Below are positions 23,401 through 63,200 of a DNA stretch of 64,000 bases, in pieces. The DNA is from Ptychodera flava (lineage: Eukaryota; Hemichordata; Enteropneusta; Ptychoderidae). Within the stretch, counting starts at the first letter, position 1. Every line of letters begins with the position of its first letter. Position numbers and translations under genes: made by a program. The notes beneath the pieces were generated by a model. That model had not been told where the DNA came from. It ran no database searches and saw only the letters and a list, made by a program, of their open reading frames with translations. The stretch is from positions 33,369,541 to 33,433,540 of the forward strand of contig NC_091931.1 in the NCBI RefSeq assembly GCF_041260155.1, written 5' to 3'.

Positions 23401-25777
23401 GTAGGTGGCTTCAGCTACGCGGATGTGTGTGAATCTGCTAGAGGTTAGTGATGTTTTGTATCATACTTGCCCAAAGAAAAGTGAACCCATGCTTCCCAAA
23501 GAAAACAATCAGGGTTTTGTAAGGGTTCTCCTACAGGTAAAAACATTTGGAACCCTAGGATTCTATTGATTTGTAGAATTGCTCAGTCTGACCTTGTATC
23601 ATGTTTCCCTGATTTATCCTGTCGATAGTCTGACAAAAATGGAAACATGGGCCATTAGAATATCAATTGAAAATTTGTATCTGGACAGACAAAAACATCA
23701 AAAGCACTTCAGTTTGTCCTTTTCTTTTGTAAAATGAGTCCTTATTTCACTGAAACAAATTTGAAACCTCATTAGAATCTGCCTTTAGAAAATATGACAG
23801 ATTTTTTTGCAAGTAGCCTAGCATACCAAACACAATAATGTGATGTCTCAACGAAAATTTTCCAATACCCAGACATAACCAGCTTATATAAAAGGACCTG
23901 CCTTCTCAGCCATCATATTATATGCAAATAAGTTGATATTTTGTGGTTTATTGTTTTCAGGCTGGGCAGCAGCTATTCTCTTCAACCCAACTGTCCGGGC
24001 ACAGTTTGATGCTTTCCGTGCTCGTAAAGATACCTTCTCCCTGGGTGTGTGCAATGGTTGCCAGCTGATGGGTCTGCTAGGCTGGGTAGCTCCGGATAAT
24101 TCAGATATTGTGCAAGGTAAACAATATCATGGAAAAATTTCACATCCTTTAATATCATTTGACTTCACAAAACAAGCAGAAGTTTTCAAACTAACCCGGT
24201 CTGTCTTGACAATTAACATTTGCATTTTTATGTTTTGACCAGCAAATGGATTCCAAGCAAGAATTTCCTCTTCTGTGCCAAAATTCCACAAATACCTACC
24301 TCCTAGTTCCAGGAAACCTTACACATTTGACCGAAAATTCTTGTGTCCATCTCCTACAGACAGGCCACTTCCGAAGGACTACGCAAATCTATATTCCATC
24401 CAGAAATTTTTATTCTTTCAGCGTAGCATCATAGTTTTGCTACAGTTGCCAAAGTTTTGATTTACCATAGTTGAATAATAAACTTTCGGTAGTACTAAAT
24501 ATAGTCCTTGTACAATTGACCTTGACAAATTTAAACACCGCATAAACTCTATGTGAAATAATTTAGCAGGTTTTGGTAACCTGTCCTCTCATGTGGGTTT
24601 ACATTTACAGTCGCATCTTTGTCACAATATGCAACTTTTGTAAACAGGTACCTTTATCTAATGGCAGCAATAAAGCAGTTGTTACAACCATTGATACACT
24701 GTTCTTTCTCATCATTTGTACATGAAGCTTTTCCAAGTCTCATTTACCTGCTTGCTTTTACCCTCGGATCTTCCTGGTCATGTGTTTTCCAAGCTTTTCA
24801 AATAAGTGGCATTTTCTCTCGACAGGAAACGCTGATGACTCTGCCCATGCCAGTCAAGGTGTCTTCCTCACCCACAACAAATCAGAAAGATTTGAGTCGC
24901 GTTTTGTCACAGTCAGTATCCAATCCAGTCCAGCCATCATGTTGAAGGGTATGGAAGGATCAACACTAGGAATCTGGATTGCACACGGTGAAGGTATGTT
25001 ATGCTGTCGACAAAAGAATCTTAGACTAGTTTATTTTAGGCAAGTATGGTTGCACCAGCCAAATAATATCAAAGATTTATTTTTACTATCATGTTGATTT
25101 CATGGCCTGATCTCAAAAGCACTCATGATCAAAATTCAATTTGAAGAGAGAGATCATTTAATTGTCTCTTTCAAAGATCACATTCAAACTTTGGTATCTT
25201 CATTACAACATAATCCTCTTTGTGCGATATTATAGGAGTATACAATCTACCGGTATATGTTTTGACTTTAACATATCATTCAGCATAATATAGAGATATG
25301 AGTGTAGGTGAGAGTTAGTCTTTATGATGTATTGTAAAAATGTTGTTTTTATCTTGTATTGTAAATGGAAATATTTCTGTACAGTGGAATGAAAGTCTTC
25401 CAAATAATAGCTCAACATCAAAACAGTTTGCTTCAGAAATTTATCTTGTGTTTTTCACGGCAGGTTACATGAAATTTGCTAGTGACAACATTCAGCAAAG
25501 CATTGAAGAGAATAACTTGGCACCCATACGCTATGTTGACGATGAAGGTCAAACCACCATGCAGTACCCTTTGAACCCCAATGGCTCACCCAATGGGATG
25601 GCAGCACTGTGCTCACCTGACGGACGCCATCTTGCCATGATGCCTCACCCAGAACGATGCACGCTGACCTGGCAGTGGCCTTGGATGCCCCAGGAGTGGC
25701 GAAAATCGGGCAAGGCGTCGCCATGGCTACGAATGTTCCAGAATGCCTGTGCATGGTGTCATGAAAACAGTTCATGA
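8470..25777 (+). CDS. PFAS: Phosphoribosylformylglycinamidine synthase (FGAM synthase), complete, 23 coding exons
   Basis: This enzyme converts FGAR, glutamine and ATP to FGAM, step 4 of cytosolic de novo purine synthesis. Exons: 8470-8617, 9996-10134, 10611-10921, 11628-11736, 12520-12660, 14928-15052, 15252-15380, 15823-16083, 16525-16755, 17568-17791, 18381-18515, 18781-18909, 19217-19447, 20233-20413, 20642-20725, 21004-21159, 21597-21716, 22048-22199, 22819-23032, 23237-23443, 23961-24116, 24826-24993, 25464-25777. All junctions are GT-AG and in phase, giving 1354 residues (human protein 1338). Landmarks run in the family order: a PurS-like N-terminus, [55 protein letters not shown], then a C-terminal class I glutaminase domain. 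Its triad is Cys1173 (GVCNGCQ), His1312 and Glu1314 (PHPER), each offset by 15 from human. The start ATG has A at -3 and G at +4. Introns hold several transposons; the coding sequence looks intact. Confidence 0.97.
9151..9513 (+). mobile_element. 'GAGGCGC' MITE, copy 2 (PFAS intron 1)
   Basis: About 363 bp. Inverted ends contain GTGCCTCGGGGACAG (left) and CTTTCGAGGCGCA (right). Flanks are TTAA (9147-9150) and TCAA (9514-9517), suggesting an originally TTAA target duplication. The interior has the shared CACCGTCTTAG, GGCGGCCATT and TTTTTATTCTTG blocks. It is in the same orientation as the copies at 5.3 and 41.0 kb. Confidence 0.8.
10250..10464. mobile_element. piggyBac-like MITE (PFAS intron 2)
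   Basis: 215 bp with 12-13-bp inverted ends CCCTTTGAGTGC and GGCACTCAAAGGG, flanked on both sides by TTAA (10246-10249 and 10465-10468). TTAA followed by CCC is the hallmark of piggyBac termini. The interior is AT-rich and non-coding. Confidence 0.75.
13269..14750 (-). mobile_element. 5'-truncated LINE with an intact partial reverse transcriptase (PFAS intron 5)
   Basis: The minus strand holds one uninterrupted frame of over 400 codons (13477 to about 14745). It covers the reverse transcriptase palm and the ORF2 C-terminus. Motifs in order are [44 protein letters not shown] (catalytic Asp pair), LLGVTIDD and [10 protein letters not shown]. The 3' end at about 13269-13290 finishes in a short ATT/AAT repeat, as in CR1/L2-type elements. 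The endonuclease and the start of ORF2 are missing, so it cannot move on its own. The intact frame implies a fairly recent insertion. It lies antisense to PFAS. Confidence 0.93.
16836..17306. mobile_element. hAT-like MITE with CCTGGAAAA repeats (PFAS intron 9)
   Basis: 471 bp with short inverted ends CAGGGTTCGTAC and GTTCGAACCCTG, flanked by TTTGAA on both sides (16830-16835 and 17307-17312). Both ends contain short tandem copies of CCCTGGAAAA, about seven in the left 110 bp and several at 17200-17280. CAGGG termini suggest the hAT superfamily, although hAT normally makes 8-bp duplications and only 6 bp match here. Confidence 0.7.
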
Positions 25778-31955: not shown

Positions 31956-32479
31956 AGAGATAAAATCTGATGGAAAATCACAGGGGAGCTCAAAAAGTGT
32001 ACACAATGCTCGTTTCTGAATAATGTCAGCTTGATCAATGTTGTTTTTGTTGCATTAGTCAAGAGCGCTCTGGAACCTCTGGCATTCGACTCAAAGCAAG
32101 CAAACTGTCAGTGATGCAATCGGTAAGAGAGTCATCAGTGAATGGTTTGCTTGCAATGATTGAGTCGAACTGCTCACGAACTTACCGGTCGGCACGGCGC
32201 CGCCACGAGATCTCGTTACAAAAATTCACGTTGTTGACCTTCGGTGAACTTTGACACACAGGGTGGTGTTTCTGATGACTGTGGCAAGTGTTACGTGGGT
32301 TCCATTCTGTCGTTTGTAAGTTCCTGCTTTCTGCGAGGGGAAACAATGATGCTCACAAGTTCAGGGTAGTTCAGGAAATTTAGAAGGTGTCCTTATTTTC
32401 AAGCTGAAGGTAGGGTGCATCGAAATCAGACTTCAGTGCAAAGCACGATTGCCAAAGTTACAACGATTCAGTTGTGAAA
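31956..32479 (+). promoter_or_regulatory. Upstream region of the membrane-protein gene, with an imperfect inverted repeat
   Basis: This short interval between transposon A and the intronless gene should contain its promoter. An imperfect inverted repeat joins TTCGACTCAAAGCAAGCAAAC (from about 32087) to GTTTGCTTGC...TTGAGTCGAA (ending about 32171). No core promoter motif can be assigned with confidence. Confidence 0.3.
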
Positions 32480-33562
32480 ATGCGCGAAGGACGAGTCCTT
32501 GCGTTTGTTTTACGTGTTACCGTACTATTCAATCTCGTGAGTTGTGTCTTGGTACTGTTCATCGGAAAGACATTCCAATCGTCGTTTTTCACATGCCGAG
32601 CCTCCGAAGGCAAGGAGCACGAGATTACGACGTACATCTTGGACAGCAGCAGGAGACCTATCAACAGGTCGTGTTGGTTTCGCAGCGGCTATGACGAAAA
32701 TTTACATGTAACGTCGTTCTTCACCATCGTCTTCATCGTGATGGTAGCCGGATCTCACTTTGTCTGGAGCAGTCTCTCCAGGATTTCCGCAATCGACAGA
32801 GCGATTCGATCCCAGAACGAGGGACAGGAGGAGGCCGAAGCGAACGACGACAGGGACGAGGCTACGGTGGTTGAGGTTCTCAGACAAACCGTAAGAAAAA
32901 TCAGCCAAGAGCCAGCAGGTACAAGCGATGATGAAGATAACTCACCGGATGCCTCTATTCAGAGTTCACTTACGAAAGTGCTCGTATATTACTTCATAAA
33001 GACGGCAATTCAACTTGTTTTAGCATATTTCTTTACCTTGAACACCGTCTGGACAGAGTGGGGATGGAAGCGTCTTTGGCTGGGTCACACAAAGTGGTGT
33101 TGGATACCGAGAGCTGTAACAAAGCTTGGCTTAGAATGCCGTCCGACCCCCCTTGGAAGAACTATTGGATTTTTTATGGTAACAAGCGGCACTCTGTCCT
33201 TCGTCCTTACCATGTTCCTCGGTACGTATATGGTCTACTTGCCAGTAATGCTGTATGCAAAGATTAGTACAGTGAGAAGGGACTTGGAAAAGTGTGGTGT
33301 CACGGGAACATGGCAGATGTTGGCTTTCCTCTTTTACATTTGGCTTGGCATGTCTTCTGATGAAATCAATGCACGCAGCTTTGAACATGGAGCTTTGGGC
33401 TTGGAGGAAGTACAGACAAGTTCGGCAAGTGATGAAGTTTCTGAGAAAGTCGCGTTCATCCAGGAAATGCCAGAAAGTTATGAGGCTGATGAAGAGAACT
33501 CGACAGGAGAAAAGGCAGAGAGTAAAATCATCATCACTGAACAACAAACTGCAGACTGTTGA
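32480..33562 (+). CDS. Intronless multi-pass membrane protein with connexin-like layout
   Basis: 360 residues in one exon. The start ATG at 32480 has A at -3. Hydrophobic segments lie at about 6-28, 78-98, 167-190 and 229-255, with a possible fifth at 278-291. The loop after segment 1 has Cys39 and Cys65 and an N-glycosylation site at Asn62. A charged cytoplasmic loop (about 100-160) is rich in Asp and Glu. The loop before segment 4 has Cys207 and Cys220, followed by RPTPLGRTIGFFM. That resembles the connexin second loop and start of TM4 (Cys, RPT, basic residue, TI), and FFTC39 resembles the connexin first-loop start. Connexins have three cysteines per loop and four membrane segments, so the match is partial. 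The long acidic C-terminus (about 300-360) is probably cytoplasmic. It could instead belong to another four-pass family. The gene is solid; the family assignment is tentative. Confidence 0.8.
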   Translation: MREGRVLAFVLRVTVLFNLVSCVLVLFIGKTFQSSFFTCRASEGKEHEITTYILDSSRRPINRSCWFRSGYDENLHVTSFFTIVFIVMVAGSHFVWSSLSRISAIDRAIRSQNEGQEEAEANDDRDEATVVEVLRQTVRKISQEPAGTSDDEDNSPDASIQSSLTKVLVYYFIKTAIQLVLAYFFTLNTVWTEWGWKRLWLGHTKWCWIPRAVTKLGLECRPTPLGRTIGFFMVTSGTLSFVLTMFLGTYMVYLPVMLYAKISTVRRDLEKCGVTGTWQMLAFLFYIWLGMSSDEINARSFEHGALGLEEVQTSSASDEVSEKVAFIQEMPESYEADEENSTGEKAESKIIITEQQTADC

Positions 33563-40821: not shown

Positions 40822-43800
40822 ATGAAAATGCTGAAGAGGGCTCTAGTTTGCTTCACTGGTACTTCAATGGTACTTTTGTTACTTCATAATAGGTCAGGTA
40901 TGTGTGTCAGTCATTACATGTTCACTTTATGATAGAAAAGTTATAGCATAGGTTGCAGTGTTGTTTTATTAGGGCAGTGTAAAATGTGTAGATATAAAGC
41001 GATCTTCCCATGTCATCTTTTAAAGTAGAACGCGCCTTAGGGACAGTTGTCGGACTCTCAAACTTTTTCATTTCTTTTCTGATCTACCACTTGCGGAGGC
41101 TAATTTTAAAGCTCTTTGTGTAAGAAAACGTTTCACCGGATTAGTTTTTCGAAAATCGAATATATGATTTTTGCTCCATAGAGTTAACGCAGCTGCAGGG
41201 ATAGCGACCATTTTGAATTTCAAATATCGGTAAATCTTGAGTTATTTGTCTCTCTAGTACCAAAATTTGCACGGTGACTCCCGATTTTTATTCTTGGTTT
41301 TGAAAGAGAACAATTTAAACATTCTTTGAGGAAAGTTTGAACAAAAGTTCAAGTCTTTCACTTTCGAGGCGCATACTGCCTTAACAAGGATCCTTTATGA
41401 TTATAAAGTCGAAGCATTTGCAAGACAGGGCAACCATTTTAACACGGATCTAATATTGCTCATTTTTTATATAACTCCTTCATGAGTATTTCAAGTTTTT
41501 GCACAGTAGGACTCAGAAAATGCGGATTAGAGAGACGAATTACCCTAAGTTTACCATATTTATATGGCCTCTTTTTCCCAGCGTTAACTCTATTGGGAAA
41601 ATGACAGTTACAATTTTCACAAGGACAAAATTTCGAGAATTCATTTACTCCACAAACTCCGAGCTAAGCCTAAGCCAGTAACTGACATCAAGATATTTGA
41701 GTGTCCGAAACAGTGTCCGATGATCATTCTTTACTTTAGCGTTTTACTTTATCACTTCAGGGTCAGATAGTAAAGGTTTCCAAAAGATGAGTGGACCACA
41801 CTTCGGCGCATTACTGTCCTCCCTTATCAGAACCTTCACAAATATAAAATACCGTTGCCATGACCGATTGCTGGTCGAGCAGTCTGGTACGACCATGTGG
41901 GAAGTCTGCCGGGACACTGACCAAGGAATTATCCTGGATACTTCAAGAAGTCCTGACTGTCGAATCTTTGTATCAATTATGTAAGTAATTACAGGTCAGA
42001 GATGTATTGTAGTGTTAATTATACACTGGATAAGTCACAGGTGATTGGATACACGCAGAAAGAAGTGACACTCCAGTGCCTGTGGGATTAAGTTATTCTG
42101 TTTTGCCCATGTGTACTATACAGTTGTACCAAGGCAAATGTAAATTCATGTAATCCTGCACCTATCCCCAGTCTGAGGCTCCTGTGTACTTGTTTTTAAC
42201 CAGACATTGGAGTTGAGATATTTCGCACAATCTCAGGAATCTCGGATGTTGAATTGAAGCATCCTATTTTAGTCCAGGATCCAGACATCCATTATTCAAC
42301 CCTGATCAACGACACTTTACGGCTTGGTCCTTCTAAGAAAAAATGTGTAGTTTGAAAGCTGTTTTTATGTTTTCAATTATTACATATCAGTTAATCCGAG
42401 CATACAAAATCTTCCTCCGAAAGGGATGAGAAATCGTCCCCTCCTTTCTTTTATTATTGACTTGGTGACTGTGCAGTCGTCTACGGCTCACAATTTGAAT
42501 TACCTCGCCGGCTTTGATATATTTGTATTTTGTTCAATACAATAAGCAGGAACCTCTAAAGGTAAAGTGATTGAACGACTTGGTTTGTGATGTTTTACAG
42601 GTCTCCAGAAAACATGACTGACAAGAAATTAATCGATAATTTAATGGCGTCGTTTGGCAATTGTGAAATCGTCCAGCTGGATGTTGAAGAAGGAAAACAT
42701 AACTTAGTGAAATATCTTAGAGATAACTTAGGACAAGGGAATGTGAGCACTCGTCTTTGAATCTGCATAATTGCATGTTCCATGTGTACCTGCACAGACA
42801 TTCCGAATCTGATTACAAAATATACTGTCATGTGGTTGTGTTCCAGTATATTTTGTAATCAGATTCGGGATATCAGTGCAGATACACATTTCTCTCCAAT
42901 CAATACATAAATCGGCATTTCCACAAGGACTGAAGGATGTCCCTCATTTTATACTTCTTGGGCTCTTTCCGAGTATTTATGGCTTGGTTACTTGATGCTG
43001 AAAGTCAACTGCCGTAAGTGAGACTTTGGTTATTGTCTGACTGCGCCAAGCATTAAAGTGGGAAGTTAGCATGAATTTTGCTGATTTTTCAACAGAATGG
43101 AAAAACAGCCCAAAATAACCAAATTTGAGCTCTAAATATTTCCATAAATGGAAAAATGACACAGTATTCTGAAATGTCGAAAGTCAGAAAGCACACATAA
43201 AACAACAATAGCTCTTTGGATCAGTCTGCCTCCGTCATCTGGTAGTATATTGTTGTGTTTTGTAGAGAGGGCGCACTGCGTTAAAACATCCCTCAAAGAG
43301 ACAATTTTTCTCTGTTTTCCAGGTTCAATTGTTAAAGATCGATATCAGTAAATTTCTTTGGTCCTCATTTGAAGACATCCTTGAATCAGGCGTCTTAGAC
43401 AATGTGAAGCAGTTGTTGTTGAGAATAGACATGGACGACATCGAAGACGAAAGTGTGGACAACCCATCAATTGAAATTTTGACAAGTTTCTATAGGGTAG
43501 CAATGCACTTGAACATATCTCCAAAGACACATTTAAAATACATTTTAAATATTCAAAAAGAATTGACAGTACCTCTTATTATTACAGAACATTACGACAT
43601 AAAGCGTATCTATCTCAACTTCTTTTAGGCAGCACTATTGCGCCAATGATGTAAATTATTTTTTCCCCGATAAAATTACCCAGAATTCCATTTTCTGTTG
43701 AACTCTTTTTACGGCAGTTTGCCTACGCATGGATTAAATTAGCTTTAGTTTTGGTGATCTTTCATACGCTATTTTTTTGCCTTTTATAAAACTATTATGA

Positions 43801-45879
43801 AGTTTTAACGAGTGAAATGATGTTTGACTGGAAATGAGCATGATGCTGTCGGAATATACTTATGTCCAACTTTAGGTAATAATACTAATATGCGCCTCGA
43901 CAGTGAATGACTTAAACTTTTGCTCAAACTTTCCTTGATGATACCTTTGACTGCTTCTCTTACCAAAGCAAGAACAAAAATCAGGGGTTACCGTGCAAAA
44001 TTTGGCTCTAGAGAGACAGATTACTAAAATTTCCAAGTATTTGAAATTGAAAATGGCCGCCATCCCTTCGGTAACTATGGGAAAAATAAAATTTCCGATT
44101 TTCTAAAAAATTAAGACTGGGAAAACTTTTCTTTCATCAAGACCTTTAAAATGAGCCCCCACAAGTGGTTGCTCAGAAGAGAATTGACAAAATTTGAAAG
44201 CCCGAATTTCTATCCCCGAGGCGCGTTCTACCTCAACCTTAAGCAAGCAAGCTGACAAGGAGAATCAGAACTAAGTATACAGTATGCGATTATTCCTTCA
44301 AAGATGCATAAGTTGCAGTCAGTGCAGCCATTGTCAATTCAAATGGTATGTGACTCTGTCTTTCAGAAAAATCAGCTCCTTGAAAAACTTGAAAAGTCGG
44401 GCTTCACTTTGATATCCTCAAATTACATTCCATCAGAAAAAAATGGAGTCGGAAAAGCACTATGTTGTTACTATGGAACGTGGTTGCAGGTACGTGCATT
44501 AACTTATTATGTACCATGAAACCATTTCACAGTCAGTGCTCTAAATTAAGTTCATCATTAGATCTCATTTGCGATATGTACCATGTATTGACAATGAAGA
44601 GCTTCAACCCTTTGAACCCTAGCCCCCTGTATTCTATAATGTCACGACTAGATTTACTGATAGACGGGACGGACGCAAAGGGTTAATACAGTAGGCATCC
44701 ACGGCAGTGTCTGTGTACTTGTCTCTTTGTCTATCTGTATTATTTCTCAGTACAACGCGAAAATTTAAGAATAACCATATTTGTAATCCTGGTATTTTTC
44801 ATGATTTCTCGTGAAATCAAAGCTAATAATAAAATGTACACTGTATTGTGGTACATTTCATGTAAAGTTGAAGTACATTATACGTACAGTTCATGTGCCC
44901 TTCACATAACACTCTCAAAAGTGAAGTTGTACAGCCCGGGTGATGGCATCATCGGTTTAGTTTTGCATGAACAATAAAAAAATCGTCATTGCGATTTAGT
45001 AACATCTTATTTGCCCGTTCTTTCAGCCGGGCAAAACGGAAACAACATCTATAACAGATAAAAATACAAAAGTGTTGAATTCGCAACCAGGAGTACGTTC
45101 TCGGCTGGTGGAACCAACGCTGTAAGAAAACAGAAACACTCATTTTCTTTGAGTCGTTTTTATAGCAAGCATTCTTATATTTTCCGAACGACAGGCTGCA
45201 ATCAGTGTCAAGTGTTGGCACTTCTTACTTCCACAGAACAATGTTTACTTGGACATATGTGTCAACTTATAAATACAGCGTGACTTTTCAGAATTTTCAC
45301 GAGATATCTTTCGTGGTAGCTCATGAATACTTCTAATATGAAAGTGAAAAATGTATGGTTGATTTAATAATGTCAGTCTTACTCATACCACTCTTGTCTA
45401 ATTCCACAGACATTCCAGACACCATTTGTGTTGCAACCATCGGCTGTCATTCCGGAGGAGGGGAAACCAGATGACTGGGACGGTGAAGTAAAACGCTTAC
45501 TGAAACATCTCCGTACCAACCAGATGTCTTGTAAGCAAAGTCGTCACATGGGACATGATGTAAATGCTGATGGAGGATGGGACGTCTGTTTTGAACCCCA
45601 CAAAGGATTAAATTCAACAAAATGTCTTGTTTATTCCATAGGGTAAGCTTTTAAACAATAGTGCAGCTAGAGAAGTCATTACAGAATATTACTATACGTA
45701 TCACACCGTAACACTTCTCCAATTTTTGAGAAAAAAATAAAATTTGTATGATATGTACATTTCTTCATATACTTGAAGCCTTGGACATTTCAATTATTGA
45801 CAACATGCATCGCTCTCCTCCCTCCCTCCCTCCCTCCCTCCTCTTTCTCCCTCCCTCTCTCTCCCTCTCCCCTCTCTCT

Positions 45880-45939
<60 letters not shown>

Positions 45940-48900
45940 ACTCTGTAGAATCGGTGATGATTGGTCCTTTGATGAGGCTATGGCAGCATATGGCTGTGAC
46001 GTATTTTCGTTCGATCCAAGGTGTGTTTCTTAAATGGACGATTTGCATATTTATTTACTTATTTTTTCCACAGACCCATATTACTAAAATGTAATACTAC
46101 AAATCGGTACGTTCTTGCTCTTAAAACGAAGAACACTGCACGTACGTAAGAAGTGCATTGTGGGCCATATTCAAGGCATTCATCTGCCCTGCACTTAAAT
46201 GACTTAAAAGATTTTGGGCAATACACACTTTAAAAGAAACATTTAAAAAGAATACATTAAACGTCATGAGAATAATGGCTAAAATTACGAATTGCAAAAT
46301 TCGCCTTGGCATATACATGCGTTAGTTGCCTCAGAATATCAGCATCATTATCTCTAAACGTTGACATCATAATCATATATCCAAAACACCTTTTCACTTT
46401 CACAATTTTTTTAAAATGTTTTTTCGTAAAGATACACCCAAATGTTAATGAAATTGGAAAGAAGTTCTTTATACTTACATTCAGTTTTGCCATCGCTTCA
46501 TAAATCAATAGTCCTGATAGCTGTCTCTTGCACAAGTTAGGGAGCGTTCAGTTTTTACGGCCTGGGGGGGGGGGGTTGCGGCAAAATCTTGTCGCCGAAG
46601 TGCAAAAAAATATAGACTCCCCTGCATTTTTTGTGAAAAAAAGATGACCCCCCCTTTGTCAGACGAAAAAAATTGATGACCCCCCCCCCCCCCCCCCGCT
46701 GAAAAATAACCAAAACCCATATGTCAAATTTACCCGCATGGTTTGGATTTGAACTCCGGTACGCGGCGCACTTTATTCGTGTAGCAGAGATGCCAGTTCA
46801 CAAATTTCTCAGTCACATCCATTGAAACGTCTGTTAATTAGGACGACTGTAAGGCAATTTTAACTTCATTTCCATAGACAACTTATGTCCATGGACATTG
46901 TATAAAGTAAACTTTATTGGAGTGGTTCGCCAAAGGCAGCCCTCCAGTTAAGAGGGTCATGGGCCATTACGTAAAGTCAACTTTATTCTAGTTGGCCACC
47001 AAAGGTGGCCCGCCGGTAAAGAGGGTCGATCATGGCTATTGCATAAAGTAGACTTTACTGGACAGGGCCGCTGAAGGCGCGAGGCCATTAAGATTGCCGT
47101 GGGGTATTACATAAAGTCAATTTATTGTAGTTGGCCGCCACAGGCGGCCCGCCGGTAAAGAGGGTCGATCATGTCCATTGCATGAAGTAAACCTAATTGG
47201 AGTGGGCCGCCAAAGGCGTCTGCCCGTTAAGAGGGTCATGGGTAATACATAATGTATATTTATTGTAGTGGGCCGCCGAAGGCGGCCCGCCGGTAAAGAG
47301 GGTCGATCAATGCCATGGCATAAAGTGAACTTTATTGTTGGTATTATGTTTTTGAAAATGTGGTGACCCCCCCTTTCCTACCAGTGAAAAAGCGATGACC
47401 CCCCCCTTTGCGGATTCCAAAATTACGATGACCCCCCCCTGGATTTTGCCGGCCCCCCCGGCCGTAAAAACTGAACGGTCCCTTAGGTTGGTATGCACAA
47501 ATTGAAAACAAGTTCTTCGGCACTAACTTCAAAAGTTGTAAATCTGTAGTATCATCAAAGTATCTGGCGTTTATTCCGTTGCCTAAAAGACTTCCGCCCT
47601 GAAACGATTACAACTCCGTACGACTGAACAACGCGAATACCAACTGACTTAATTTGTCCATTGTATTGATTTTTTTAGTAGATCCTTGAAATATTTGTCA
47701 TAGGATTGGCACAAATAAACACCATTAATTTGGCAATGTTTTACCAATAAGTCAACTCTACCAAATCGTTTTGTTTGTTGCATGTTGGGAATATAATAGA
47801 GATCACTTTGCATTTTGCCCTTTATGACAATTCACCACAATCACTACATCAATTTGGAAGTGGAGTCGCGGTGTAATATTACAAAATCCAACGCACATGT
47901 ATATCACCTAACGCTTCCGATCATGGATCTCCAGGTTAAATAGACATTGAGAGTCCTGAAAATATACTTCGAATATCAAATACAGATGGTAACATTACCA
48001 CGCCAGCGTGGCGTATGTTGCATATATCGACAGAATGTTTCCGAAAAGGCAGAAATATATCTAAATACTACGAAAAGTTTTAGCTCTGAAGGAAGAATAG
48101 TACAAAGGCACGAAAGTTGGATGGTTGAAGAGGGGAAATGCGAAGTAAATTTGGCATTTTCCCCATGGGGTTTCCATATTTTATATCGTTTCGGATACCA
48201 TTAAAATATTGAGTATTTTTTAACAGATCCTCTCATGTTGTTGTAATTTTCAAGTTCTCAAAAGGTGAAGATCCCTTATGAAGTCCGAGAGCGGGCTTGC
48301 TGAACAAATAAATAGCAAGTCTGGTTCCTTTAGGGCTCCTCCGCCACGCTGTTGAAAAGTCAGCAAAATTCATTCCAGCTTTCTAATGCTTGGCGCTGTC
48401 GTGAAATAACAAGTGCCTCACTAACTTGGCTTTCAGCATTAACCAACCGAGCCACAAACACTCCGAAAGGGTCTGGTTTCACGACTTTGGTCTGCTGGAC
48501 AAGAATTCAGATAAACACCCTGGCCGGAGTACTCAAAAATGGAAGGTTCGGACTCTAGAGGGCCTCATGGCTGAGATGGACCACCACAATGTAAGTTGTG
48601 CCTACAATGTTACGAGTCGAGGTTACTAGTACATATTCTTCTCTGACAAAATCATAGATTATCATTGAATGTTTTTTTTTTTTTTTTGCTTTTCAAGTAT
48701 GAAGTTGGCTTCACAGATGAATGAAATTCTTTTAACGCAGGAAATTAACAATAGCTGTTTCTCTGTACGTATATGTAGTCAACGAACGTAAACTTTTGCT
48801 CCATGTCGCATGATAATTGTTTTGTATGCTCATCATGTTTCTCGGCAATATTCTACCATTTTATTTTGCTTTGGTCTTGGCGTGGGGTGCTATATTTATC

Positions 48901-49410
48901 GATGTTGTTCTGCACCTTGTAAAGTATGATGGAAGGACATTCTTTTGTCTCAATGGAAAATTCCGGCGTGTATATTGGTTGAATTGGTTGGAGAAAAACT
49001 TGCTTTTGCATTGATATTCATAATCTGTTTACCAAATATACTGACATATGATTGTGTTCCAGCGCAAGATCGATGTTCTGAAAATTGACATAGAGGGCGC
49101 TGAGTGGCAGTCTCTGTATCAAATGCTGGAACGGGGGACCCTGCAGTATGTGAAACAACTGGTCTTTGAAGTTCATCTTTGGAAACCGATACCAGGGAAC
49201 GAGAAGGCAGGCTTTCGGGAAAAATACAGCATTCTGAAATGGTTAGAAGAGCAGGGATTTCGAATGTGGCACTGGCATCAAAACCCCTTGAGTGAAATAA
49301 TCAAACTTGGGTATAGTGATTTTCTTTCGGAAGCATGCTGCTACGAGTTGGCGTGGATCAACACAAGATACAATGATTGGTGGGAAAGTGCAGGAAGTCA
49401 AGAAATGTGA
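40822..49410 (+). CDS. METTL24-like protein with tandem methyltransferase domains, first one degenerate
   Basis: Nine exons: 40822-40897, 41761-41980, 42601-42742, 43323-43496, 44367-44489, 45410-45642, 45949-46020, 48437-48590, 49063-49410. All junctions are GT-AG and in phase, giving 513 residues. Residues about 7-22 form a signal anchor, suggesting a type II membrane protein, probably in the secretory pathway. Residues 246-513 match the METTL24-type domain: GGWDVC, VYSIGIGDDWSFDEAM, CDVFSFDPS, SERVWFHDFGL, LKIDIEGAEW and ACCYELAW. Residues 26-245 are a second, diverged copy: MWEVC, CRIFVSI, LLKIDISKFLW and ALCCYYGTWL. The SAM-site glycine/DWSFDEAM block is lost and the EGAEW motif is replaced, so this half is probably non-catalytic. 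Intron phases match between the halves. The substrate is unknown, as for METTL24. It might be two adjacent genes, but there is no stop after exon 5 and no start before exon 6. Confidence 0.85.
41024..41380 (+). mobile_element. 'GAGGCGC' MITE, copy 3 (METTL24-like intron 1)
   Basis: 357 bp flanked by TTAA on both sides (41020-41023 and 41381-41384), the clearest target duplication of the family. The inverted ends share a GCGCC core (AGTAGAACGCGCC at the left, GGCGCATACTGCC at the right). The interior blocks match the copies at 5.3, 9.2 and 43.9 kb. Confidence 0.85.
42784..42887. repeat. 44-bp-arm palindrome next to a relic splice acceptor
   Basis: The left arm 42784-42827 and right arm 42844-42887 pair with about four mismatches; the inner 25 bp are perfect. 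The 16-base loop, with the start of the right arm, reads TGGTTGTGTTCCAG, a sequence that also ends the real intron before exon 9. It lies in METTL24-like intron 3. Confidence 0.9.
43875..44232 (-). mobile_element. 'GAGGCGC' MITE, copy 4 (METTL24-like intron 4)
   Basis: About 358 bp in the opposite orientation to the other three copies. Its + strand begins with TGCGCCTCGACAGTGAA and ends with CCCCGAGGCGCGTTCTACC. Flanks are TTTA and TCAA, so the duplication has decayed. Confidence 0.8.
44608..44682. mobile_element. Very short piggyBac-like inverted-end element
   Basis: 75 bp between CCCTTTGAACCC and a diverged inverse end (GGACGCAAAGGG), flanked by TCAA (44604) and TTAA (44683). The ends resemble the TTAA-CCCTTTGAG element in PFAS intron 2. 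It lies in METTL24-like intron 5. Confidence 0.5.
45812..45944. repeat. (CCCT)n/(CT)n tract abutting a splice acceptor
   Basis: About 130 bp of CCCT and CT repeats run directly into the acceptor of exon 7 (AG at 45947-45948) of the METTL24-like gene. The whole intron is only 306 bp, so the repeat makes up nearly half of it and serves as the polypyrimidine tract. Confidence 0.95.
46540..47482. mobile_element. Harbinger-like non-autonomous element B (METTL24-like intron 7)
   Basis: 943 bp with inverted ends GGGAGCGTTCAGTTTTTACG and their inverse at the right, differing at two positions. It is flanked by TTA on both sides (46537-46539 and 47483-47485). GATGACCCCCC-type motifs occur repeatedly inside both ends (about 46640-46700 and 47360-47440), all in the same orientation. 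The centre is a hairpin-rich minisatellite. There is no transposase. Confidence 0.85.
46903..47336. repeat. About 70-bp minisatellite with alternating units and GC hairpins
   Basis: Six units of about 68-72 bp, each starting with an AAGT(a/c)(a/g)ACTTTATT-like sequence and containing a GC palindrome such as GGGCCGCCGAAGGCGGCCC. Alternate units differ: one type ends in GGGTCATGGGxxATTAC, the other in CCGGTAAAGAGGGTCGATCA. The true period is therefore a dimer of about 140 bp repeated three times. Confidence 0.9.
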
Positions 49411-50263
49411 TTTAGAGGTTCGTCATCCAAAGTATCAGAGAATAAATACGAGGAACGGGGGGGGGGGGGGCTATAAAAGTAAATGGGGGCGAGGCACGAA
49501 AGAAACTGTATTTACAGGTTTTGAAAGTTCCAGAGAACTAGGAGGGGAGGAGTTCCATTGTTTACCCCAAGCAAATTATTAATAAATCACACTGAATGGG
49601 TCAGGAAACAATTATTTCATAAATCTGCCTTTTATCAGTTGTTTTATGAAAATGATTTATTTCAGTGGCCGACAATCATAGTTATGCAACAAGGGAATGT
49701 ATGTCACACATAATGTCAATATGGATGAGTATTATCATTTTGACAACAACCTAGCTGACTGTTATCGTGTGTGCCTGAGTAACAACGGCAAAAAATGGAC
49801 TCTTACGGGAGTACTTGAAAGGCAGACGTGGAATGTAAAAAAAGTTATTATTCAGGCTCGCATTTCTTACGTCAACAGAAGCGATGAGTTTTGGCCCTTA
49901 AATAATTAATTTTACTTCTGTACCAGTGCTTACCGACTCTCTATCCAAAAGTTAATGGTAACACGAAGTTTCGCCTTCCTATTTTACTGAAATTTTAAGT
50001 TTGAATCGACCATGATCATGCTTCAGTTGAGTTGCATCGAGCGAACCTAAAAAAATAAACGACGGAGCTGTAAGACGGACTCACTTTGCTGTTCCTCTAG
50101 TCTACCCCTAACAATACTCCACTATGTCGAAAAAGTTAAATGGCTACTCACTATCAAAATGTCTATAAAGTTCCAAACTACGCTGTTTCATCTATGCTCA
50201 ACACGCTTGTGGAAAAGACTATATGATACAAGATACCCCATGGGTGAGTTGTAGTGTACGATC
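49411..50263 (+). other. 3' UTR of the METTL24-like gene and spacer
   Basis: AATAAA signals follow the stop at about 49441 and 49578. A poly-G run lies at 49457. A 70-codon open frame at 49697-49909 has no recognisable domain. I see no further gene. Confidence 0.45.
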
Positions 50264-50401
50264 ACAGTCGTTTGGTGGGCTGTTCAGCTCTGGGACTATT
50301 CGCCCCATAGACGAGTGTACAGAAGCGAGAAACACCTCGCTTCTGTACACTCGTCTATGGGTGGAATAGTCCCAGAGCTGAATAGCCCACCAAACGACTG
50401 T
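50264..50401. repeat. Near-perfect 66-bp-arm palindrome with a 6-base loop
   Basis: Arms 50264-50329 and 50336-50401 are almost exact reverse complements, beginning ACAGTCGTTTGGTGGGCTGT and ending with its inverse; only a few mismatches lie mid-arm. The loop is AAACAC. It ends about 20 bp before the target duplication of element C. Confidence 0.95.
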
Positions 50402-51649
50402 GGTACGATACATGATATCTAAGGGACGGACCATTAGATCTTGGGAGGGGGGTGGTCAAAAACAGAAAAAAAAATTTCAGAGCAGAAAGTTATTAGGAAA
50501 AAAAAATCTTCAAACTAGTTTGCAAAATAAAAAATAAATAAGAAGACAAAGGCGTAAAAAAAAATCTGCAAAAGTCTTTAAAATTTTGAATTTTTTTTAG
50601 ATTTTACCGACAGAAAGCAATTTTCTGTATTTTTTAGTACATCCTCCCGGCACATTTTTAATTTTAATTTATACATTTAGAGTGACTGTATCCCTTATAC
50701 TGGAAGTTGTGATTATCTTATCTTTTCAGGACTTTTGTATTCTGATCACTTGAAAATTATGAAATTATAGAACCTGTTTTCTACTTGTTTCCTGCGTACA
50801 AACCAAGCAGGTACACTAGGTAAAACATTGAAACTATGGTATGGTTGTCAAGACAGAAAGTTGTATTTGCCTTTTAAGATCAAGGTAAACAGATGCAGGC
50901 CACATCAGTTTCATTTTTTTCACAGCATTTTATTGCAATGATGAATGCAAGAATGGGTGAACAAGTAGAAACATGTCAATAATGATAAAACAACATATCA
51001 AGTCAATATGTATTATTTTGCTTTTAAAAAGGCATTTTCAATTCTTTTTTATCAAAAAACAGCCTCAAAAAACAACAGCAACACATGTTTTAACATTCAA
51101 CAATACACTACATAGAATGCCATCTATCCAACAAATCCCAACACAAAAACACACAAAAGGGGTTGAACTTTGAAAGTTTCTCGATAGCAAATACTGAATA
51201 AATCTGCATGAATAATCGTTTTTATGTAGCAAATTTCAAAGAAATTGGACAAGCCCTTTTAGAGAATACAGATTTTTGACCCTGAATGGCATAAATTGCC
51301 CTAAAAAGACAAATATTGAAATTTCAACACATCTATACACATCCAATCAATTTGGACATGCTGCTACAGAGAAATAGATGTTTTGATCAAAAAGGGCAAC
51401 AATTGCTCTAAAAACACAAATATGCAAATTTAACTATATTATTTAGCTTATTTTAGCTTCTCAGCTTGTCAAAATCAATTGTAAATCATGAGATATGCAT
51501 GATGTTTGGTGGGGTGAATGTAGCCATTTCACCACGCAGTAGAAAGGGAAGCCAGGAAACCAAAATAGTCAATTTTCAAAACTATAGGAAGCTACTGAGG
51601 AGCAAGAAGACCATGTTTCAGAGGAAGATGTGTAATCCGAAAAAAATGC

Positions 51650-57942: not shown

Positions 57943-60218
57943 AGATAACTACTTTATCAATGTAGACAATATGGCGTCGCACAGTAGTGGTGAGGCACAA
58001 CAATAATGCCATGGCGAGAGACAGGAGTGGTGTCAGCGTGACTTCCAGGGATCTCTGATTGGAATAATGGTCTCTATGGAGTACATCAGTCTCATTTAAG
58101 GAGAGCCTGTGTGATAAATCGGCTTTACGGTCAAGCTAGCTAAATGTGCATCATGATTACCCCGTATTACTTGATAAGCACTTCGTATTACTCATCCCCT
58201 AAATTGTCGTCGAAATCTCGTGTTTCATTATTTCAATTTACACAGAATGCAGAAAGGACCTATTTTACGAGGTCCTGCGTCAGCAACTACGCGTACGCAC
58301 GAACAAACTGGTTGCGCGGTAACCGATGGCACTGTAAAATAGTATTTACCCTGCAGAAAAAACTGACTCCAACACAACAATCTATCTTTAGGATCTTGCT
58401 AAAAGCCTTGTCAAAACATTTTAAAATATTTGTTGACAGAGTTATAGGAATAAAATGAAATCCATCCATCAAATGTCAACTCTGCTAGACTAAGGGTACA
58501 CGTAAACATAATTACATACGTTCTGAAGTTTGTGTAAGCTGGCAGACACGTATCAGTCAACGGACACATAGAAATGAGAAACACGCCAGGTGTGAAGGTT
58601 GTCTCGCCTGTCAGTATTATTGCATCTCTAAATTTAGCCTTGCTTATGTTCAAATATCCATTTGCCTTTGAGTATTCGTGTTCCTGTTTGTAAATTATAG
58701 TTTGTTGTTCCACTCCTTAGGTCATATCGGAATACCGTGTATTCACCTTGTCAATGCAGCCTCTGTACACGTGGAGGGTCCTGATGTTGTTGTTTACAGA
58801 TGAATTTTAGTCCAGATTAGAATTCATTTTGAAACAATGACAAGTCAGAGGCTGTACACAACTTGAACGCACTGTGTTTGTAAGGCGGGAATAGTGCAAA
58901 ATTTTAGGGAGAAGAAGAAAAGTGTACTCGCATGTTTATCAACGATAACATATTTATAAAAAATGAGGATATTAAACTTTATCACTCCTGATGCGTGAAG
59001 AGAATATCAAAAATATACCCATCAGAATCCTATATACAGTGGATATTGCATATTTTTAAATTCAACAAGAAGAGCTAGGGACATACCAATGCATGCAAAG
59101 AATATGAATGAATTATAGAAGTAATTGATACCCTTTTGGAAAAATCGAAGTGAAAGACAATTGTCAATAGAAATCAAATGATTTTTTAAGTGCTTAAAAG
59201 GCCGAGTGATATATCGTTTACTTCAAGTGATCCTTGATGTTAGACCAAATAGAAAAAGTGTGTTTCCAGTAATACGCCTGCGAAAATTATGGCAGGTAGG
59301 TAGGTTGGAAAACTTTTTTTATTTCTCTTTTTGTTGGCTGGGACCCGATATATACGATAAAATGTTGAGAATTAACTCAATTTGTTTTTGAAAATGAGAA
59401 AAAAATGTCAAGGGTCGGTGTGCTTGTCTTGGGTACGTCGGGTTACTGTGACATACATATTTTATTTGCCCTTATACATAGAGGGAAGAAAAGAAACGAA
59501 TCGGCGGCTTAATTATTTAACTCATTCAAAAAAGGTATAGAATGGTGTAGACTCATTATTGTGTAATTACGCCATATTAATTTACAGTTAAAATGTCAAC
59601 AGAATGATTTCTGTGTTCTGTTGGTACACGGGGACAGCTGACATGGCAGTGTCAAGAGCGGCGGCACCACAGAATCATAGAAGAGTACAATGTCAGGACC
59701 ATTGAACTTTCCTTCGTAAAATTAATCCGAGTCCGGTCCGGTAAACACATCCTTATTTAAAATAACATCTAGGATTTAAATACCGGTATGAGTGGTCATT
59801 TTAAGGAGAAAAAGCTATCTAACGCTTCTTTTATGTGTTTTTGAAACATATTTCCTCGATCTTGTTGAGTCTGAAGGTTAGAAGAAAGGTTCATTTGTCA
59901 AAGAAAAATGGCAGTTATAGGTTATAGATTAGGGCTTGTAGGTTGCACAATATCCGTGAAAATTTCGTCACTAGTAGCGACCCAGTAGACTACCACTCCA
60001 TCATGCTTGCGCTTGAATCGTAAGCAAACAGTGACCTATTATATTGGACGCGATACATAAATCAACTCGGTTTGATAACACTGTTCTTCACTTGATTGCA
60101 CCCTAATGCTGAGTGGCCACATTAAATACAGGTTATCACGTTCTCCTCAACGCTGGGACCATACGGCCACGAATCCCGCTCCGTACAGTGTAGCTAACAG
60201 GAACCCTCTCAGAATACT
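57943..60218. other. Intergenic sequence upstream of ADA2
   Basis: No recognisable exon. The promoter of the ADA2-like gene should lie in the last few hundred bases. Short open frames here lack domain or splice support. Confidence 0.4.
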
Positions 60219-63200
60219 ATGGCCTTTCTCGCCAAATTTCTGCTGTTGGCCGCTCTGTTCATAGACGTTGCCACCTGCACCTCCAAGGAGGCCTACCTCA
60301 CTGTACGAGAGCAGGTCCTGGCGAAAGACGCGTCCTCCGCGACCGGATGGGACCAAACGTTGGAAGGCAAAGAGTGGGCTGTCAACGATGTCCTGATGAG
60401 GTTTAAGGGCGAGGATATCGCCAAGGGACGGAATACTAGTGTCTTCCCACCGGCTACCCATTTCTTTCTCGCAAAAGAGGATATCGAGAAGAGCGAGGTG
60501 TTCAAAATCATCAAAATGATGCCAAAAGGTAAGGAAATGGCCATTATTAATGGAGGGGGGGGGCGGAAGAGAAAATGTTGTACTGGCTTTATTTTTCACA
60601 CCCCCACGACGTTAGCCAAAATTTGAGCTTAAAAGCTATACACACGTGTATGGAATTACCCGCTCTATATTTTATTCAAACATAAATCCACTTACATGAG
60701 TATGGTGACTTGTAAAGTGCATTTGTATACAAAACACGATTGGAACTAATTTGGGATAATTGGATGGTGATGTAATATCGATTTAATCTACAAATGTAAT
60801 CTCATCTGCTTTGTTTTTCATATTGCACACTTATTTTTAAGAGTAATTTGCAATATTGCAACATTCAGGTATACGGCACCTAACACTTTTGAGAAATTTG
60901 CAAAATATATTAATACAATTATCCCAAATTAGTTCCAATTGTGTTACAAGAAAATGTGATCACTGAAATTCACCCAAAATATCATTTCACTGTATGTGGT
61001 GGTCTATTGTGCAAAGTATGTACAATGTTGTCCCCAAACAAAACTAGATATAGCTATACATTTATATATTTGATAATTGATATGAATGTACTTCACACAA
61101 GGATCTGAAGGATATGGTGATAAGAAGTGTATATGTGAACAAGTTTCACTATACACATTTGTATATGGCGTAAACTTTGGACAATGTTTGTCCGACACAA
61201 AACTGGCAATGTATTTGAAAACTGATATAAATGTACTCACAAGAAATGTGATTTTGGAATTTATCATTACCACATACACCTTGATACTCAGCATTACAAT
61301 GATCAGAAGCACAAACTGTAAATGATCATCAGTCATTGAAACAAAGCTATTTCATTGGATAACCGGTGATAACCGATTTATGAAAGATTTGTTTTCGGTA
61401 TGATTTGCATTGACTGAAAAGTTGGAGGCACCCCTTATGGTACTCTAGAATTTTCAAGGCCTCCCTTGAACACTCTGTTTTATGTACCACCCCCCCCATT
61501 TTATTTTCCGCCCCCCTCGTTCTCAGCCCAATATGCATGGGGGATGCTTCCTGCGACACCTTTCGTGTTTCATGGACAACGGAGTTCCACAGCCACGTTG
61601 AAGTAATGATTTTTTCGCAAACCGCGAAGTACTTGCTAGATGCCACATCGAGGTGACAGAAGCTGGGTCAAATTGGCGTGGTGTCTTTGTTAATATTTGA
61701 CAACACTCAAAGGGATGATTGTCCCCACACCCTCTTCAGCGATACTACTACAGATATGATTTACTGTTTGGGAATGGCCATGTTATTTACTTGAAAGAGA
61801 GAACAAAAACAAATGTACTCTATATAGCGACATCTCTGCTTGTCATTTTGATTCACAGATTATGTAGAGTTTTAACGATAGGATAGTTGGATGTTGATGT
61901 ATAGTTGTATTACACGCACTTCTGTTTCATTGTAGGCATTCAATGCAACGTACTTTGAACCTATACTTTCGTGCATTAATTTGCCGTGATAAACGGACGG
62001 TGCTATCTTATAAGGCCAATGTCTTGTCGCTGCATGGTGTATCAATGTAGTATAGTATTAGTCTGATCACATGGTTTCACACGTGGCACCAAAACCACGT
62101 TGCACCACATCATCTCATCGCGTACCATTTCGCACCAGAACAACCTCGTACCAAAACCTCCAAGAGTTACGTCACCACAAAACGTTTCAGCCCCCCCCCC
62201 TCGAAAAAAAACCCGCCAATTCGCCTTAAACAATCGCCAATTGGCAAAGCTGAAAAATAAAATAACCAACCACTGCCCTCGAAGTTTTCATCATCTATCT
62301 ATCATCCCACGACTTACTTAGTCTTGAAAGTGTACACATTTTGAGAAATGGCATTCAGCAATTCCGCGCAAGGCTCTACTACAGCCTGTGTATGTCAACT
62401 AAACTGTGCATTTCTGTATCATTGACAAATGACTTTAGGGTTTGGACTCTAATTCAATTATCAACAACAGCGATCACATATACAGGCTTTGTTGACAGAC
62501 TGAATATTGTGTGTTTCAGCATACTGTGGGAGAGGCAGCAAGAAACTGTATTTGATACATTGCATAGAAATATTGAAAAAATTACGACAGTTGCAGCTTC
62601 TGTCCCGTTACAAGGTCTACTTGTCGTTTTTCTTATGAAAACTCAATGGCAGTATTATCCTATTTTAGATTTTTTCGAACTAAAAGTCATAAAGTGCGAT
62701 AAAATGCTTCCAGATTTTGTTTAAATATCATTCACATTAGACCTGCTTGCTGACATAAAAATATGACAAATTTCTTATTGAATTACCTACCAAACTATGG
62801 AATCTGAAAATGTAATAACAAATAGGCAACCAACCACATCCACCTTTATACGCAGAGCATAAGCCTTATGTTCCCCTTTTCTACCGCCAGATTTTACAAA
62901 TCCCCCTGAATTCCTCCAGCCCCTCTCCAGTATTTGTAAATTCTCGCAGTGAGTTTCTTTTTCTCAAATAATCTGAAGAACAGATTAACGTAGGAAAAAC
63001 ATTCTGAACATTCTCAAAATTGTTCTTGCAGGCAGCAATCTCCACGGACACGACACGGCTCTGGCAGACATCGACTGGTTGGTCAAAAACGCCACCTACC
63101 GGCCGCACTGCTACATGTGCCTCGTCGACCTTCGTGATACCATTCACTTTCGGTTTTCCGAAAGTCCACTGAACGACACTAGTGAGTGTGAGTGGAAATT

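Follow-up and report, generated by a model that had tools for sequence, protein, structure and literature searches.

A METTL24-type methyltransferase gene with a candidate pseudo-methyltransferase domain in line in the hemichordate Ptychodera flava

Two copies of a methyltransferase domain at one locus

Here we examine a 64,000-nucleotide stretch of the genome of the hemichordate Ptychodera flava (NCBI RefSeq assembly GCF_041260155.1, contig NC_091931.1, positions 33,369,541 to 33,433,540 of the forward strand; hereafter the window), in which a predicted gene at positions 40822-49410 may encode two tandem copies, A and B, of a METTL24-type methyltransferase domain. Nine exons on the + strand chain into a single frame of 513 residues closed by TGA, and all eight introns are bounded by GT-AG, which makes the nine-exon model proposed in the initial annotation a valid open frame on paper. 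Exon 1 (40822-40897) supplies the start codon and a hydrophobic signal anchor, MKMLKRALVCFTGTSMVLLLLHNRS, and ends in phase 1 at the donor CAG/GTATGT. Copy A (residues 26-245) is encoded by the four exons that follow. Exon 2 (41761-41980) carries a stem and the start of a degenerate domain with Cys58, Cys75 and Cys92, and ends in phase 2 after Ser-Ile; exon 3 (42601-42742; KLIDNLMASFGNCEIVQLD), which ends in phase 0, is the decayed equivalent of exon 7 in copy B; exon 4 (43323-43496) holds the LLKIDISKFLW block; and exon 5 (44367-44489) ends the copy with ALCCYYGTWLQ and the donor CAG/GTACGT. Copy B (residues 246-513) begins with exon 6 (45410-45642), comprising a stem, Cys286, DGGWDVC and CLVYSIG, where the first in-frame ATG (Met284) lies already inside the domain. 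Exon 7 (45949-46020; GDDWSFDEAMAAYGCDVFSFDP) runs from motif I to strand 2, exon 8 (48437-48590) is a block without counterpart in the mRNA of copy A, and exon 9 (49063-49410) encodes DVLKIDIEGAEW, QLVFEVH, HWHQN, ACCYELAW and the stop, with an AATAAA signal 3' of it at 49441. Each half has one sequon, N103 in A and N313 in B, and a further one, N23, lies within exon 1.

The identity of copy B is clear from family profiles. It matches PF13383 (Methyltransf_22) at E 4.4e-22, with 79.3 bits against a gathering cut-off of 22.4, over residues 18-234 of the copy and profile positions 36-247 of 252, bearing out the intact METTL24-type domain initially annotated in the second half. PF05050 is matched too (E 2.4e-9), and the NCBIfam FkbM model TIGR01444 reaches 29.3 bits, under its cut-off of 37.7. 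We take METTL24 to be the nearest animal family and to have a single domain. A scan of bacterial genomes yielded 22 loci, including an FkbM-like group that aligns to copy B across the whole domain; 14 of the 22 entered our main profile and 15 an alignment (A2). L013 was excluded from both, and L012 from the profile only, as truncated near-duplicates, and matches to L015, L019, L020, L022, L023 and L024, also excluded, reach just the IDIEGAEW end; among the relatives retained, N-termini are uncertain in several (L012, L014, L017 and L018 are without a start codon). All 15 aligned relatives match PF05050 and four of them match PF13383 at E <=0.001. Copy B retains 16 of the 19 residues invariant in these 15 relatives, the changes being W to F, P to S and F to V, and 20 of the 26 columns in which at least 13 of 14 sequences of the multiple alignment agree. 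With most conserved family residues retained, copy B is the likely enzyme of the pair. A sequence search of the PDB returned no solved relative, its few matches reading as chance (e.g. a DNA ligase at E 0.0042), and seven stretches of viral contigs held none, with short matches near IDIEGAEW in two of the seven that were left unused. No third copy of the domain was found in the window, and neither Rfam at gathering score nor a tRNA scan gave a match.

That the halves represent two copies of a single domain, as initially proposed, is strongly supported by their direct comparison. A global alignment with free ends contains 64 identities over 193 positions and scores 69 (z 12.2), whereas 2000 shuffles average 8.5 (sd 4.9) and reach 42 at most, none being as good; blastp with composition correction off gives E 2.6e-7 across 104 residues. 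Resolved by exon, the signal is carried chiefly by the C-terminal parts. No shuffle in 5000 equals the match of exon 4 to exon 9, and 13 in 5000 equal that of exon 5 to exon 9. The match of exon 3 to exons 7 and 8 combined (71/5000), at DNLMASFGNCEIVQLD / DEAMAAYG-CDVFSFD, is weak alone, yet falls in the right order; exon 3 against exon 8 gives no counterpart signal (2255/5000). The landmark pairs on which the initial annotation relied (MWEVC/GWDVC, CRIFVSI/CLVYSIG, LLKIDISKFLW/VLKIDIEGAEW and ALCCYYGTWL/ACCYELAWI) are all present in the translation, but the N-terminal ones are weak by themselves, since 156 of 5000 shuffles match exon 2 to exon 6 as well. Six cysteines occur in identical order in each half (58, 75, 92, 120, 237 and 238 in A; 286, 305, 317, 339, 490 and 491 in B), and five of the six pair in the global alignment. 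With Cys-Cys pairs scored at zero the alignment retains a z of 5.9 and a score of 35 against a shuffle maximum of 34 (gap cost 11), again with 0/2000 shuffles as good.

The correspondence of intron phases claimed for the two halves holds in part. Read by eye, a phase-2 intron falls directly after Ser-Ile in both copies, near which the aligner leaves residue 99 unpaired. Ahead of the LKIDI block, the phase-0 introns are offset by two residues: V147 aligns to I401, while exon 9 of copy B starts at R399. In addition, the intron at 43497-44366 splits copy A, and exon 9 of copy B is without an equivalent.

Some results tell against copy A as a copy of the methyltransferase domain. Scoring Cys-Cys at zero shifts the N-terminal register, leaving just two or three of its six cysteines paired. 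Pfam and NCBIfam assign it no family at a limit of E 10, a limit at which HMMER filters still discard most matches above about 0.1, and a looser profile built from all 22 bacterial relatives and copy B ranks it under five of 2000 shuffles. The profile of 14 bacterial relatives without copy B, on the other hand, places copy A above all 2000 shuffles, with E 0.092 among 2003 sequences, and with E 0.023 once copy B is added. A methyltransferase match for residues 26-245, as expected by the initial annotation, is thus missing from the curated families, while homology by way of copy B is strong. The link from A to B appears strong and that from A to the wider family weak; on these comparisons copy A is related to the family by descent through copy B, but is no member by profile.

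Copy A as a probable pseudoenzyme

The residues lost from copy A fall where catalysis might be expected to depend on them. By eye on pairwise alignments, about 8 of the 19 invariant residues are kept (S, D, D, I, D, I, W and Q). We used pairwise alignments for all statements about residues of copy A; the MAFFT multiple alignment misplaced its LKIDI block, and an automatic count of 9 of 26 conserved columns rests on that misplacement. Lost are the motif-I glycine (SIGIGDDW in B, SIMSPENM in A), the EGAE of IDIEGAEW (now IDISKFLW), the E and H of FEVH (FExH), VKQLVFEVH having become VKQLLLRID, the E of CYELAW and the HxHxN group. Strand 2 still ends in an aspartate (QLD against SFD), and IDI, the W that closes IDIEGAEW and the Q in VKQL also persist. 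The initial annotation had copy A losing both the DWSFDEAM block and the EGAEW residues; EGAE is indeed gone, though the W stays, but DWSFDEAM is decayed within exon 3, not absent, and the block truly without counterpart in copy A is exon 8 of copy B. By analogy with Rossmann methyltransferases in general, we take the lost residues to be cofactor and active-site positions, and copy A is probably a maintained pseudo-methyltransferase in which catalysis has been lost.

The alternative that copy A is a decaying pseudogene, joined by gene prediction to a working neighbour, is in our judgement very improbable. It would account for the missing conserved residues, the missing Pfam match and the gene scraps close by, and it might also fit a codon score of about zero for copy A (-0.8 over 245 codons) where copy B reaches +16.1, a result that counts against maintained coding function, with a training set for the score that was small and impure. 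Yet the 245 codons of copy A hold no stop where 13.8 would be expected at the non-coding density of 0.0564 (P about 7e-7, a value that overstates the case because these exons were picked as open), every splice site is GT-AG and the cysteines are retained. Across aligned codons, the two copies share 42% of first, 63% of second and 27% of third positions, the first two values being inflated by the protein-guided codon alignment. Because third positions are just 27% identical, silent sites look saturated and the duplication looks old, and a pseudogene of such age does not seem plausible for copy A.

One transcript or two neighbouring genes

On the DNA evidence we favour the gene model in which copies A and B would lie on one transcript and be translated as a single 513-residue protein. 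We hold this fusion to be somewhat the more probable account, and fairly probable when it is counted together with an alternatively spliced arrangement that includes it. The donor at 44489 (CAG/GTACGT) that would join the halves scores 6.25, the best of the eight in the gene, and donors of such strength occur once per 4571 nt of the + strand of the window; the weights used are generic and not trained on P. flava. Exons 5 and 6 agree in phase, which chance would achieve one time in three, and the gap of 920 nt between the copies lies inside the range of the other introns of the gene (306-2416 nt).

The 5' end of copy B provides a second line of evidence. The PF13383 match begins at its residue 18, upstream of Met284 (its residue 39), and the bacterial relatives align with modest similarity to its stem. 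Because both the Pfam match and the bacterial alignment begin before Met284, copy B would need an upstream coding exon, and a copy B starting at Met284 in exon 6 was rejected on the position of the Pfam match. Scanning 44490-45405 at a lenient cut-off for start-to-donor exons of 10-150 codons, in any phase, we found none with a hydrophobic stretch. Between 34 and 45.4 kb no anchor-encoding first exon ends in phase 0 at a donor score above 1, and the sole anchor-encoding start ending in phase 1 under the same threshold is exon 1 itself (two rows, from two ATGs). The same kind of scan recovers exon 1 of copy A and a signal peptide at 60219; exons shorter than 10 codons and anchors divided between exons are missed by it.

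Against one transcript stands the possibility of two tandem genes, which we regard as a serious if clearly less probable explanation. Gene A, made up of exons 1-5 and terminating at 44519 or 45125, would then encode a secreted pseudo-methyltransferase with its own anchor, and gene B would be an ordinary METTL24-type gene whose first exon went unrecognised. Single-domain genes duplicated in tandem are common, as are chimeric gene models, and in-frame stops are available at each of the two places. Left unspliced, exon 5 reads on through nine codons, VRALTYYVP, to a stop (44490-44519, + strand) roughly where the domain would naturally finish; this tail sets R opposite the R of the tail of copy B and, by eye, YY opposite WW, and it lowers the number of shuffles that match exon 9 as well as exon 5 does from 13 to 2 of 5000. 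An equally good resemblance, however, follows 11% of the 7412 GT sites and 12 of the 96 CAGGT sites on both strands of the window, for which reason the tail, striking as it looks, was rejected as proof of a separate gene A, and a donor as strong as that at 44489 would by our estimate fall by chance within 36 nt of the end of a terminal exon only about once in 100. A second possible end is offered by a good acceptor at 45027, which opens a terminal exon in frame from exon 5 (45027-45125, + strand), encoding PGKTETTSITDKNTKVLNSQPGVRSRLVEPTL before a TAA at 45123-45125. Used internally this exon is out of frame with exon 6, and in what is a weak test 57% of 500 open non-coding stretches have a codon score at least as high. 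The gap contains AATAAA twice, at 44828 and 44973, a frequency that we judge to be near chance. As for the first exon of a separate gene B, no anchor-encoding candidate was found in the gap, nor any ending in phase 0 between 34 and 45.4 kb at a donor score above 1. The gap does hold seven rows of phase-0 starts without a hydrophobic stretch, four of which (from three donors) have a donor score above -1, and a stricter scan yields 33 start-donor pairs over the whole + strand. Because hits and misses of such scans are both common, failure to find an anchor exon within 0.9 kb counts for little when taken alone.

The two acceptors could also both be used, exon 5 joining either 45027, giving a short protein with copy A only, or 45410, giving the fusion, such that the pseudo-domain would also be released alone. 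Each of these acceptors is good and matches exon 5 in phase, but the extra exon lacks coding bias in the weak test described above, and we consider alternative splicing of this kind unlikely.

A possible partner domain in cis and its known analogues

Under the favoured fusion model, an old duplication of a METTL24-type (PF13383, FkbM-like) unit would have placed two copies one after the other behind a shared signal anchor, resulting in a single gene whose two-domain product would be either anchored in the membrane or secreted. A lumenal or secreted protein is suggested by the anchor, together with the cysteines and the presence of one sequon in each half. The C-terminal copy B would act as the enzyme, while copy A would probably fold on its retained hydrophobic and cysteine skeleton, without binding S-adenosylmethionine, and serve as a structural or regulatory partner in cis, replacing the second subunit of a dimer in the manner of PRMT7. 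The single transcript, secretion, the inactivity of copy A and its partner role are all inferred from the DNA. Taken as a whole, the proposal that a METTL24-family enzyme of the secretory pathway carries its own cis pseudo-methyltransferase partner, as an independent invention of the PRMT7 arrangement, is one we advance tentatively, rating it as possible and somewhat short of probable.

Among the systems this arrangement may be compared with, METTL24 itself appears among the human seven-strand methyltransferases that are classed as uncharacterized (PMC11514484). As in the PF13383 family, a hydrophobic N-terminus precedes a matching domain in copy B; the difference lies in the second, degenerate copy placed in front of it here. 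In PRMT7 the inactive half is needed for activity and forms a pseudodimer (PMC10908127). The likeness to PRMT7 and PRMT9 is that duplication has led to a chain combining an active with an inactive methyltransferase domain, whereas the methyltransferase family is a different one, the inactive half is C-terminal there and N-terminal here, and a pseudodimer is hypothetical in the present case. A figure legend for C. elegans CMTr2 likewise names a methyltransferase domain and a catalytically inactive methyltransferase-like domain (PMC9479742); this cap methyltransferase resembles the present protein in combining active and inactive domains and differs in its family and in working on mRNA caps. In METTL3-METTL14 and DNMT3A-DNMT3L an inactive relative partners an active enzyme, as PMC10908127 also relates; these are separate proteins, an arrangement that two tandem genes at our locus would resemble. 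Tandem active and inactive methyltransferases are already known, and a METTL24-family version would be new. A two-domain METTL24 was not described in the titles or abstract openings of the literature searched, a search that did not extend to animal protein databases. If the fusion is real, a natural pairing of active and inactive domains would suggest that METTL24-family members work as dimers, giving a route to the interface, and the partner domain could point to how enzymes of this family are assembled. If the halves are instead separate genes, the locus would represent an ordinary old tandem duplication in which one copy turned pseudoenzyme.

Gene remnants, repeats and neighbouring genes

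Intron 3 of copy A contains a rearranged scrap of a B-type gene (42782-43127) in three parts. The first (42791-42846, direct) is an 82% match to the end of intron 8 of copy B, down to its AG (E 1.4e-10); the second (42844-42907, inverted) is a 78% match to the same intron (E 1.7e-9); and the third (42965-43127, inverted) is a 73% match to the end of intron 7 together with the first 33 nt of exon 8 (E 2.3e-20). Read by eye, the fossil acceptor in the scrap is followed by a TAA in the frame of exon 8. We rejected the idea that it represents the lost exon 8 of copy A itself, as it is 73-82% identical to the DNA of copy B against 27% identity between the copies at third positions. Because the exons of A and B are far more diverged, the scrap should be later than their duplication. 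Our reading is that copy B or another B-like copy gave rise to it through a subsequent insertion or conversion and that it is now dead, which shows that the locus has gone on rearranging.

Several repeats lie in and around the gene. A hairpin with 46-nt arms occupies 42782-42889 in intron 3. Inverted repeat pairs at 41197-41375 and 43889-44067, in introns 1 and 4, flank exons 2-4; their arms of 83, 47 and 42 nt are 80-91% complementary and perhaps represent two opposed copies of a mobile element. In intron 7, the interval 46539-47483 is bounded by 31-nt inverted repeats (94%) and contains G/C homopolymer runs and three copies of a 98-nt repeat at spacings of 139 and 138 nt, an arrangement that may be a non-autonomous transposon. 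A near-perfect palindrome, with 67-nt arms (96%) and a 6-nt spacer, is located 3' of the gene at 50263-50402.

Elsewhere in the window, 42 of the 435 open frames were searched against Pfam, with family results obtained for the set and not for individual frames. The matched families and the spliced genes themselves suggest a eukaryotic source, most likely an animal. None of the eight families from this set seems to fit a 382-codon open frame at 32414-33559 on the + strand. Open frames at 15783-25774 on the same strand read as phosphoribosylformylglycinamidine synthase, a placing made by reading, and the GATase_5, AIRS_C and FGAR-AT families were found within the set. At 60198-60623 a signal peptide precedes a stretch that on reading looks like the N-terminal domain of an adenosine deaminase, perhaps belonging to a secreted ADGF/ADA2-type gene, and PF08451 was likewise among the families matched, again without assignment to a frame. 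On the - strand, 13480-14739 holds a reverse transcriptase frame (PF00078, E 4.5e-24) that probably derives from a LINE-type element.

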